64,000 bases of DNA. Source: Methanopyrus sp. SNP6. Its GTDB lineage: Archaea > JAADCQ01 > Methanopyri > Methanopyrales > Methanopyraceae. Shown piece after piece: positions 3,816 to 38,489 of this stretch. Where the stretch lies: contig NZ_CP019436.1 in the NCBI RefSeq assembly GCF_002201895.1, positions 571,456 through 635,455 of the forward strand, written 5' to 3'. The notes beneath the pieces were generated by a model. The model did no database searches. It saw only the letters and a list, made by a program, of their open reading frames with translations, and was not told the DNA's origin. Position 1 is the first letter of the stretch, and each line of letters begins with the position of its first letter. The position numbers and the translations under genes were made by a program.

Positions 3816-3931
3816 GCTGAGCCCCGACGGGACATGGGAGCAGGTACCTAATGAGTGCCTCGCTGCCTACTATGGTCTATTAGGGAGTCCCGTGGGACGT
3901 CGTTCGTTTCGAATCCCATAACGATTTAGGC

Positions 3932-35052: not shown

Positions 35053-35129
35053 GGGCCCGCAGTTCAGCCCGGCAGAACGCCGGCCTGACGAGCCGGTGGT
35101 CCCGGGTTCAAATCCCGGCGGGCCCACCA
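35053..35129 (+). tRNA. tRNA-Val (anticodon GAC), C at position 8
   Basis: Full cloverleaf: acceptor GGGCCCG/CGGGCCC, D arm GTTC...GAAC, anticodon stem CCGGC/GCCGG with loop CTGACGA (anticodon 35087-35089), T arm CCGGG-TTCAAAT-CCCGG, discriminator A and an encoded CCA. Position 8 (35060) is C, as in the tRNA-Thr of this window, which implies C-to-U editing. No intron. A ParA-like gene follows about 180 bases downstream. Confidence 0.96.
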
Positions 35130-35308
35130 CCGCTAATTGTTACGAAAATCATAACAACATGACCCCGGACCTCGAGAATGAGGTGATTGAATTCTCTCCA
35201 TACCATCATGGGAATCGTGACGCTCGCTCCGCCTAACTATTATATGAGTCATATGTTCTTGATTTCCGGAAAGTATTGAGCGGTGGTCCCGCCGGACCTG
35301 GGGGACTG

Positions 35309-36139
35309 TTGAGGCTGGGCATCCCGTTCCTTGTCGGCGTTACGGCGTACCAGGGTGGGACCGGCAAGACTACAGTGGCTTTCAACGCAGGTTTGGAGTT
35401 CGCGCGTCCTAGGGGCTTCGACGGTGTCCCAGCCTGCCCAGTGGTTATGATCGATCTTGACCCACAGGGTCAAGCCAGGAAGGGTGGGAGAACGCTGGTT
35501 TCCTTGTTCGAGGACGGACCGTTCGAGCGACACTCGATCAGGATATCGGTCTCGGACTTCCGAATGTGGAAAGTGGAGTACGATCCCAACGGCTTTGACG
35601 ACATCGTCCGAAAGGACGTACCGTTCGGCACCGCACTACTGGCCGTACCTAGAAAGGGGCTGGAAAGGATCAACGCCAGTTCGTTACGGAGATTAATAGG
35701 GGAGGTACACGAGTTGGTTGGCGATCCCCCAATCGCCTTGGTGGACACTCCACCGATGAACGTGAGGGCGGAGTGGGTTCGAAACATTCTGGTAGAGTGC
35801 GATCTGGTGGTGCCGGTGGCGGACTTCAGGTCGATCAAGCAGTTAAGTAGGTTCTTCCGTGAGTCGGGCTACGTGACCCGATTCGCCGTACTGAACAAGG
35901 TGTTCGAAGGGCGAACGAAGGAGGCCGAATTCCTGAGGAAGCGTGTGAAGGAAGAGCTGAGCCGATTACCGATAGATACCGAATCCGACTTGATTTGGGT
36001 TCCCGATTCCGAGGTGATCCGCGTGGCGACGGATCTCGGAGTACCCGTGCGGATGAGGTTCAACTCCTACGGTTACGCCACACCTTTCCGTAGGATAGCA
36101 CGTCGAATCACACTGGAATGGAGCCGGAGGGTGATATAA
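35309..36139 (+). CDS. ParA/Soj-like ATPase with altered Walker A
   Basis: 276 residues from TTG 35309 (after GGGGG); TTG 35276 is a longer alternative. The Walker A is AYQGGTGKTT (13-22), where the deviant motif's signature lysine in KGGxGKT is Q15. MIDLDPQGQARKGG and ALVDTPPMNVRAEW are ParA-type switch segments. ParA ATPases move DNA or protein complexes on nucleoids or membranes. The partner gene overlaps by one base (TAATG). It lies alone between tRNA-Val and an AT-rich tract. A partition or positioning role is inference. Confidence 0.83.
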   Translation: MRLGIPFLVGVTAYQGGTGKTTVAFNAGLEFARPRGFDGVPACPVVMIDLDPQGQARKGGRTLVSLFEDGPFERHSIRISVSDFRMWKVEYDPNGFDDIVRKDVPFGTALLAVPRKGLERINASSLRRLIGEVHELVGDPPIALVDTPPMNVRAEWVRNILVECDLVVPVADFRSIKQLSRFFRESGYVTRFAVLNKVFEGRTKEAEFLRKRVKEELSRLPIDTESDLIWVPDSEVIRVATDLGVPVRMRFNSYGYATPFRRIARRITLEWSRRVI

Positions 36140-36864
36140 TGACTTCCACGGAGGTCAAGTTCGACGGCGAGGCAGTACAGCGCGTGTTCGGCGTTCCGCG
36201 AGATGTGATTAAGGGTACGGTAGTAGGAGCTATGGACGTCATGGAGGAGAGGAAATCCGAAGGCCTCGCCGCGATCCGGCGACCGGATGAGATATGGCCA
36301 ATAGGACGGGCACTGGCGCGGTTGGCCTCGACGGCGAGAACGTCGCTAATCCGGACGGGCGGTATCTCGGAACCGTGGGGAGTACTCGAAAACGTGCTTG
36401 GAGACAACGAGCCGAAATCCCCGCTTCTCCGTCGATTGTGGGCTTTGACTATGGGACGGGGAAGTGTTGGTTTCCCTGCACTGACTCCGGAGACTACGGT
36501 GATAGCTTGGGGCGTTCGAGACACCGGCGAGGTGAACTTGGAGGTGAGAAGCTTGGTGGAAACCCCGGTTGTTCGAGGTCTGGTGACGCTGGCAGTGATG
36601 GACGACATGGGTGAGATGATGCTAGACAGGTTAGGTGATCGGGCGGAGCGGTTGTCCGAAGCACTCCGACGGGCGTTCGACGACCGAGCGATCAAACTTC
36701 TGGGTACTTGCGCGTGCTCGTGGATGTCGGAGAAGCTCGGGGACGAGTTCGAGGAGTGGTGGAACGAAGGCGGTGGGTGGCGGGCTCTCTATAGAGTCGT
36801 ACGTAAGAGCGAGCTGGTGGAGTCGACGGTGAAGGAACGCACCGGGATAGAGCCCGGGAAGTAA
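36139..36864 (+). CDS. Unknown partner of the ParA-like ATPase
   Basis: 241 residues from ATG 36139, which shares one base with the preceding TAA and follows GGAGGG. Mostly helical with short strands; it contains FGVPRDVIKGTVVGAMDVMEE near the N-terminus and a long helix around DRAERLSEALRRAFDD. No recognised DNA-binding motif, though the first 60 residues could form a helical DNA-binding unit. In ParA loci the second gene usually encodes the site-binding or activating protein, so this is the candidate for that role. Confidence 0.65.
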   Translation: MTSTEVKFDGEAVQRVFGVPRDVIKGTVVGAMDVMEERKSEGLAAIRRPDEIWPIGRALARLASTARTSLIRTGGISEPWGVLENVLGDNEPKSPLLRRLWALTMGRGSVGFPALTPETTVIAWGVRDTGEVNLEVRSLVETPVVRGLVTLAVMDDMGEMMLDRLGDRAERLSEALRRAFDDRAIKLLGTCACSWMSEKLGDEFEEWWNEGGGWRALYRVVRKSELVESTVKERTGIEPGK

Positions 36865-37175
36865 GCCCGCGGTCCGGCCCCCACGGTTTCGTTTCATGAT
36901 ATCCGGTTTTCGAGTTCTCGGTACACCCCGCCCTCACTCGTCGCGAAAGCGACCACTTATCAGAACTGTCGACATTTTACCCGCTCATCGACATTGATTG
37001 TGAGGTATTCGTCATTCATGGCTAAAGATAGTGAGTGAGTTATGGTGGCTAGTTTTGAAAGGTGGATAAATCTGTGTTGGATGGTATATGTGAAATAGTT
37101 GAAAGATTGATTTGATTAGGCAGTGTTCATATAAGGAGTAGGACAATAACATTTTTCAATCGGGAAAGGATAGGT

Positions 37176-37268
37176 GTGTCGAAGTTGATGGTGATGAGAA
37201 TGAAAAGAAAAATAAAGGCAGTAAGAGGTAAAAATAGTAGAAAGCAATACACTGAACTGTTGGATTAA
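37176..37268 (+). CDS. Possible small basic peptide
   Basis: GTG 37176 opens a 30-residue lysine/arginine-rich frame (MSKLMVMRMKRKIKAVRGKN...) ending at TAA 37266-37268, with GGATAGGT upstream. It may be chance coding in a purine-rich tract. Listed only because a start and a ribosome-binding-like sequence are present. Confidence 0.2.
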   Translation: MSKLMVMRMKRKIKAVRGKNSRKQYTELLD

Positions 37269-37298
37269 GAAGAACACTCTCGAGAAGAATACTCTAGA
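37269..37298 (+). repeat. 15-base imperfect tandem repeat
   Basis: GAAGAACACTCTCGA is followed directly by GAAGAATACTCTAGA, two mismatches in 15. It lies at the end of the C-depleted tract beyond the ParA-like pair and could be a binding site. Confidence 0.55.
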
Positions 37299-37363
37299 TT
37301 ACTGGGTCAAGGTATAATAGAAGATTATGCATAGAGGTGAGTAAGGTGTGATGGGGAGGAGGA

Positions 37364-38437
37364 CTACTCCTTCTCCACCGGGCCCAGGACACTGTCCAGG
37401 GCCTTCTTCCAGGCCTTGGTGGGCACCTCCGGCATCGCGGTGACGCCCTCGCGGACGACGGTTATCGCGCTCACCGGGCACGCCCGGGCGCACGCTCCGC
37501 AGTAGGCGCAGGTCTCCGGGTGTGCCACGATCTTAGTTTTACCAGCCTTACCGCCTTTCTCAAACTCCAGCGCGCCGCACGGGCACACCTCGACGCACAG
37601 TCCGCAACCGACGCACTCCTCGTCGTCGACCTCCAGGGTTCCCTCGTACGGCTTGATCACCTCGATGGCGTCGACCGGGCAGACGAAGCCACACCATCCG
37701 CAGTATACGCAGGAGCTCGGGTCGACGTCGACGGACCCATCGACCTCACTCTTCTCCGGGATCTCGCCGCGGGTGGTACCGTAGCACACCATACAGCCGA
37801 CCTTGATCGCGTCCACCGGGCACGTCCTCATGCATACGCCGCAGTACACGCACTTGTCCTCGTCGACTTCGATGCTGAACTCGGGCTCAGGGTTATCGGC
37901 GCTGGGCTTCGGCCGCTCGACCGTGATGGCGTCGGCAGGACACGCTTCCTCGCAAGCCTTACAATAGATGCACTTCTCCTCGTCGATCTCGATCTCTCCC
38001 ATCACGAGGTCACCGGGTGTCGGAACCTCGCGCTCGACTGTAATAGCCTCCTGCGGGCAGGTGTCGGCGCATAGGGAGCAGTACACGCACTTCTCCTCGT
38101 CCACTTCCACCGACTTCGGCAGCTTAGGCAGTCCAACCTCTGTCATGGGCTTCCCGTTGACGAACAGCTGGATGACGTCGTACGGGCATACGAAGGAGCA
38201 GATGCCACAGAGGACGCACTTACTCTCGTCGACGTCGATCGGGTCCTCTCCCTTGCGCACGACGGCGGACGGTGGTGCCACGGAGATCGCGCCCACTGGG
38301 CAAGCCGTCTCGCAGATCCCACAGGCGGCGCACTTCGACGTGTTTACCACGAGTTCCCTCTCCTCTGCACCCTCCCTGACCACGCGCAGCAGCGGTGGGG
38401 ATACCTCCTTCACGGGTTCTAGCCTGGCTTCCGCCAT
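37364..38437 (-). CDS. fwdF: Polyferredoxin with eight [4Fe-4S] motifs (FwdF-like)
   Basis: 357 residues with eight Cx2Cx2Cx3CP motifs, for example CAACGICETACP, CVLCGICSFVCP, CVYCSLCADTCP and CVGCGLCVEVCP, plus an extra CMVC between the fifth and sixth. Size and number of clusters match subunit F of formylmethanofuran dehydrogenase, which conducts electrons in the first step of methanogenesis from CO2. ATG 38437 follows GGGGGAAA; the frame is open to 38452. No other fwd gene is adjacent, so another polyferredoxin role is possible. Confidence 0.9.
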   Translation of the reverse strand: MAEARLEPVKEVSPPLLRVVREGAEERELVVNTSKCAACGICETACPVGAISVAPPSAVVRKGEDPIDVDESKCVLCGICSFVCPYDVIQLFVNGKPMTEVGLPKLPKSVEVDEEKCVYCSLCADTCPQEAITVEREVPTPGDLVMGEIEIDEEKCIYCKACEEACPADAITVERPKPSADNPEPEFSIEVDEDKCVYCGVCMRTCPVDAIKVGCMVCYGTTRGEIPEKSEVDGSVDVDPSSCVYCGWCGFVCPVDAIEVIKPYEGTLEVDDEECVGCGLCVEVCPCGALEFEKGGKAGKTKIVAHPETCAYCGACARACPVSAITVVREGVTAMPEVPTKAWKKALDSVLGPVEKE

Positions 38438-38489
38438 GTGTGTTTCCCCCAAGTAAATCTCGTTCGCGCCACCCTCAGACCGTCGTCCG

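Follow-up and report, generated by a model that had tools for sequence, protein, structure and literature searches.

Does a gene for a ParA-like ATPase, coupled to a gene of no recognized family and lying between a tRNA gene and a repeat-bearing AT-rich tract, mark a DNA partition locus in Methanopyrus? Such a locus had been proposed in a preliminary description, which we followed up in the window (the whole 64,000-nucleotide stretch of DNA analysed), in its genome of origin (Methanopyrus G000; 1,421,521 bp), and in a comparison set of five Methanopyrus genomes (G000–G004), three of which are fragmented and two of which (G002 and G003) are metagenome-derived. Presumably, G001 (1,694,969 bp) is M. 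kandleri AV19. The published genome of M. kandleri AV19 has a size of 1.69 Mb (PMC5504354). The proposal held in part: the ATPase and its partner form a conserved core and partition is a plausible function, but the nearby repeats do not support it. As a tentative reading, which we hold a little less probable than its negation, the two genes (hereafter designated A and B) form a ParA-adaptor cassette for positioning or partition, of mobile origin and with exchanged alleles. The features of the locus are as follows.

35053–35129, plus strand: tRNA-Val(GAC), called by ARAGORN and Rfam
35137–35157, no strand assigned: palindrome TTGTTACG-AAAAT-CATAACAA, 3' of tRNA-Val, at the same place in five of five genomes
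35309–36139, plus strand: gene A, predicted ParA/MinD-type P-loop ATPase of 276 aa with a TTG start (orthologue starts, AF2, Foldseek, profile)
35351–35353, plus strand: CAG (Gln15) at the signature lysine of the deviant Walker A motif (sequence)
36137–36141, plus strand: TAATG, overlap of the A stop and the B start (sequence)
36139–36864, plus strand: gene B, partner of A, 241 aa, orphan family found in Methanopyrus only
36865–37363, no strand assigned: AT-rich, C-poor spacer (499 bp), private to G000, in which one 15-bp duplication occurs in two copies
37364–38452, minus strand: polyferredoxin gene, after the spacer

Both the tRNA gene to the left of the pair, on which the two programs agree, and the TAATG overlap of the two genes are thus present as described.

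Gene A encodes a ParA/MinD-type ATPase

The reading frame of gene A is open from 35276 at the latest. Its start was put at 35309, probably a TTG codon, because a TTG just upstream of the P-loop is shared in position by all five orthologues; a start at 35053 was excluded, this position belonging to tRNA-Val. When the AF2 model of A (pLDDT 89, pTM 0.90) was compared by Foldseek, Soj was the best match (E 2.6e-9) and McdA was also among the top matches, the TM of these matches being about 0.55. Moreover, the profile of the A family matched MinD-1 (2.4e-7) and Soj (1.1e-6) and, weakly, 7dut (SOJ protein, 220 aa; E 3.5e-4), which we take to be SegA. Pfam and NCBIfam searches with A of the window yielded ParA/MinD matches below the curated cut-off, and both A2 paralogues pass a Pfam cut-off (AAA_31, CbiA). 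In the alignment of seven A homologues, the motifs GGTGK, DxDxQ, and DTPP are invariant throughout. The assignment of A as a ParA-type ATPase was therefore borne out by both fold and profile matches, and A is, by its modelled fold, a member of the ParA/MinD superfamily. The protein is basic in four of the five genomes (pI 8.9–9.7, the 84–95th percentile, against a proteome median pI of 5.2), a charge that would fit a nucleoid-binding ParA. The other proteins of the ParA superfamily in G000 are MinD, ArsA/Get3, NifH/CfbC, Mrp/ApbC, SRP54, and a CooC-like protein (the last two assigned by sequence reading), so that A is the only ParA-like candidate in this genome besides MinD; SMC is also present.

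The glutamine reported in place of the signature lysine was confirmed in the codon at 35351–35353, the deviant Walker A of A in G000 (one assembly) reading QGGTGKT. Hence the signature lysine of KGGxxK(S/T), by which the ParA/MinD superfamily is recognized, is absent from this protein. The sequence KGGTGK is found in all four orthologues and in both paralogues; the altered motif, previously cited as making the locus unusual, is private to G000, and Gln15 should not serve to define the A family. Two ParA-type proteins without this lysine have been described, namely McdA of S. elongatus (SGGQGKT), which has an unusually high ATPase activity (PMC6328274, PMC9178275), and BcsQ (RGGVGTT; PMC9178275). 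The private loss in G000 offers a natural test of the role of the signature lysine.

Gene B encodes an orphan protein of Methanopyrus

Among 394 genomes searched, B was detected in five, all of them Methanopyrus, and no homologue outside this genus was found in viral contigs, plasmids, other archaea, or species genomes. No Pfam, NCBIfam, PADLOC, or PHROG family matched the 241-residue protein at a meaningful score, no match to a ParB, ribbon-helix-helix, or helix-turn-helix family was obtained, and its profile matched no partition protein in the PDB. The earlier statement that the partner has no recognized family thus withstood the profile search. The AF2 model of B is all-helical and unreliable (pLDDT 44), no DNA-binding fold could be recognized in the protein, and in charge it is average to acidic. 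Two apparent relationships were rejected. A profile match to one phage capsid protein of HK97 type (8eci, E 9.5e-6) was reproduced neither with four related capsids, for which E was 15 or worse, nor when the search was run in the opposite direction; a resemblance to Bcl-2-like proteins was confined to short helical stretches with E values near 0.01–0.1.

The pair is conserved in the genus

The tRNA-Val gene lies upstream of A in all five Methanopyrus genomes, being intact in G001 and G004 and intron-bearing in G002, with a partial copy at the end of a contig in G003. In G000–G003, B adjoins A in the same orientation, and in G004 A and two halves of B sit at contig ends. The junction between them varies, with an overlap of GTGA in G002 and of ATGA in G004 and a gap of 3 nt in G003. 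Moreover, G001 contains a second, paralogous pair, A2-B2, in which B2 matches the B profile with an hhalign probability of 96% (E 1.5e-9) and A2 is preceded by a winged-helix-like ORF with a weak match to MCM_C (E 4e-4). Collectively, the genus-wide occurrence, the paralogous pair, and the ParA fold of A uphold the conserved two-gene core. The partner is not invariant, since the gene that follows a second ATPase gene in G004 (L028:8845–9498) encodes a protein in which no similarity to B was detected. This latter protein holds the sequence RNSHLH, which resembles, by eye only, the HEPN motif R-x4-6-H.

Alleles of the pair have probably been exchanged

Between G000 and G001, 33 neighbouring proteins are 90–98% identical, in contrast to 48% for A and 61% for B. 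The synonymous sites of A and B are near saturation (dS 1.97 and 1.42, respectively), far above the adjacent polyferredoxin gene (0.35). As the raised synonymous divergence is not explained by faster protein evolution alone, exchange of distant alleles is its simplest reading, and we infer from the sequences that the cassette has probably been exchanged between Methanopyrus lineages at the same place. In G001, a broken second B, similar to those of G002 and G003, lies beside a polyferredoxin fragment (L021:5800–6180), about 18 kb from the intact pair. Alternatively, the pair may have been inherited vertically with very fast protein evolution, the allele of G000 being partly decayed, as the private Gln15 might indicate; the raised dN/dS between G002 and G003 (A 0.259/0.55, B 0.108/0.26; neighbours about 0.26–0.33) points in the same direction. 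We consider this very improbable, because the synonymous sites between G000 and G001 are near saturation while those of the neighbours are not, and because the frames of both A and B are intact. Exchange of alleles at a fixed site, as in our preferred reading, warns that a conserved position need not mean vertical inheritance.

A mobile origin of A-B is probable in view of its position and divergence. In G001 and G002, the gene immediately before tRNA-Val is of LAGLIDADG type (L020:9624–10682 and L023:10875–11912); neither such a gene nor the tRNA-Val intron of G002 is present in the window. In G001, large insertions are found to the left and to the right of the locus. No integrase was found, nor was a duplicated tRNA end as an integration scar in the window, nor a plasmid or viral contig carrying B. 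The divergence and exchange of the pair, together with this insertion hot spot, would also be explained by a conflict module for defence or inter-element competition, in which alleles turn over rapidly. The A2-B2 pair of G001 is located near an ATPase of the DUF499 family, which occurs with restriction and defence genes. Such a module nevertheless seems hardly likely, given that PADLOC matches none of the proteins, that no toxin or nuclease domain is present, and that the universal presence and fixed site of the pair are unlike those of most defence genes. A positioning or partition cassette that arrived on a mobile element remains our preferred reading.

Repeats and palindromes near the pair

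The AT-rich tract described to the right of the pair was confirmed at about 36960–37350, with GC as low as 35%. The segment 36995–37345 is the sole 350-bp stretch of the 1.42-Mb genome in which C or G falls below 10%, and it is C-poor on the plus strand. Neither an Rfam family nor a match to phage DNA was found in the tract. The repeats claimed within it fared unequally. The direct repeats TCGACATT are at chance level (two copies in the window versus 2.39 expected in shuffles), and 8-mer pairs within 30 nt arise in 17% of shuffled tracts. Likewise, the GAAA-loop hairpin is a single instance of a perfect 5-bp stem with a GNRA loop, and 3% of shuffles have one. The 15-base tandem repeat is above chance, being reached in 0 of 500 and 0 of 150 shuffles, but consists of two copies only, with 13 of 15 positions matching, and Tandem Repeats Finder reported no array in the tract.

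When the other genomes were compared, the pair was found to be kept, whereas the tract of about 500 bp and its repeats are absent from all four; in G001 and G003, the distance from B to the gene that follows is only about 95–140 bp. The orthologous pairs of G001–G004 thus lack the repeats proposed as a centromere, and with this the nearby-repeat part of the partition-locus reading fails. No conserved centromere-like repeat was found near the pair across the five genomes, and a search for gapped palindromes within 20 kb of the locus gave no convincing enrichment. The 8-mer ACACCCGC, enriched near the locus, was rejected, as it occurs on both strands and in no common context.

The palindrome TTGTTACG-N5-CATAACAA (TCGTTAYG-N5-CRTAACGA), which directly follows tRNA-Val at all five loci, was also rejected as a centromere of the pair, because about 70–90 copies per genome stand behind tRNA genes and gene ends. 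There are 67–94 copies in each of the five Methanopyrus genomes versus 0–4 of a reversed control pattern. In G000, with 73 copies, the palindrome is 3' of 26 of the 30 tRNA genes, its centre 17–21 nt past the gene, and many other copies lie 25–48 nt past stop codons, often between convergent genes. A corresponding sequence, CGTTA(N)9TAACG, has been published for AV19, where it follows about half of the tRNA genes (PMC5217627). These positions identify a general tRNA/3'-end element that is not specific to the pair, and, since protein genes are also followed by copies, a broader role at 3' ends or in termination seems likelier than one confined to tRNA maturation. Variation at arm positions 2/20 and 7/15 is almost independent, as would be expected of a DNA site bound by a protein more than of an RNA hairpin. 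A further copy is found in the window at 3904–3924.

Candidate function of the A-B pair

According to our preferred reading, A would bind ATP, dimerize, and bind DNA non-specifically, and B, made from the same transcript, would link A to a cargo and control the ATP cycle of A; the cargo would thereby be positioned or shared out. The cargo would most likely be DNA. The module would probably derive from the partition genes of a plasmid or virus and would already have settled behind tRNA-Val when the genus began to diversify. Since then, distant alleles of the cassette would have replaced one another at the site by recombination. We infer both the joint function and the mechanism; by analogy, the coupled B fits the role of an adaptor.

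In comparison with bacterial ParABS of type I (ParA/Soj), A-B has the same fold, the motifs GGTGK(S/T), DxDxQ, and DTPP, a basic ATPase, and a second gene downstream; it differs in having a partner other than ParB, in that a parS-like repeat was not found, and, in G000, in the Gln that replaces the signature lysine. The AspA-ParB-ParA system of the archaeal plasmid pNOB8 is likewise a segregation cassette in which genes overlap and the ATPase is of ParA type, but no AspA gene is present at the A-B locus; the winged-helix-like ORF before A2 in G001 may be compared. In SegAB of archaea, similarly, the ATPase gene lies on the chromosome and overlaps a downstream partner gene that is confined to archaea. 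SegB, however, belongs to the ribbon-helix-helix proteins and has the sites TCTAGAsTCTAGA (PMC9178275, PMC12284271), whereas B is an orphan with no detectable relative.

This last comparison bears on a role of A-B in housekeeping chromosome segregation, in which the pair would replace SegAB and B would bind dispersed chromosomal sites. The genus-wide presence of the pair at one chromosomal place agrees with such a role, as does the lack in G000 of any other ParA/Soj-type ATPase except MinD. Furthermore, the S. solfataricus SegB motif TCTAGA[GC]TCTAGA has 0 copies in the 1,421,521 bp of G000; the shorter TAGA[GC]TCTA has three, all of them more than 15 kb from the locus, and in Euryarchaeota a more degenerate form of the motif is possible (PMC12284271). 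However, allele exchange down to 48% identity amid neighbours of 90–98% would be odd for a core function that is essential, and no conserved candidate centromere was found near the pair; we therefore regard housekeeping segregation as unlikely. Slightly more doubtful still is the fuller proposal that a ParA-type ATPase and a partner specific to the genus segregate or organize the Methanopyrus chromosome in place of SegAB, one lineage doing so without the signature lysine and whole alleles being exchanged between lineages. For the distribution of DNA in euryarchaeal methanogens without a recognized SegAB, the coupled A-B pair provides a concrete, testable candidate.

The cargo might instead be other than DNA, such as a protein complex or a membrane or surface assembly, as carboxysomes are positioned by McdAB. 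McdA is among the best Foldseek matches of A, it naturally lacks the signature lysine as well (SGGQGKT; PMC9178275, PMC6328274), the partner McdB is likewise an orphan, and B is not basic. At the A-B locus, however, neither a carboxysome nor any other compartment is found in the vicinity, B has no sequence match to McdB or to any other protein, and no conserved neighbour gene would account for a cargo, as the neighbours vary between genomes. We judge a non-DNA cargo improbable, and continue to favour, with the reserve stated at the outset, a cassette that acts on DNA.

Genes neighbouring the pair

The genes next to the pair differ from genome to genome. Near the polyferredoxin gene of three relatives, sequence reading found apparent formate dehydrogenase subunits and a formate transporter, which have no counterpart in the window. 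These formate dehydrogenase- and transporter-like genes are located as follows.

L023:5394–8747
L022:3176–7769
L020:14118–15176
L021:1718–3775
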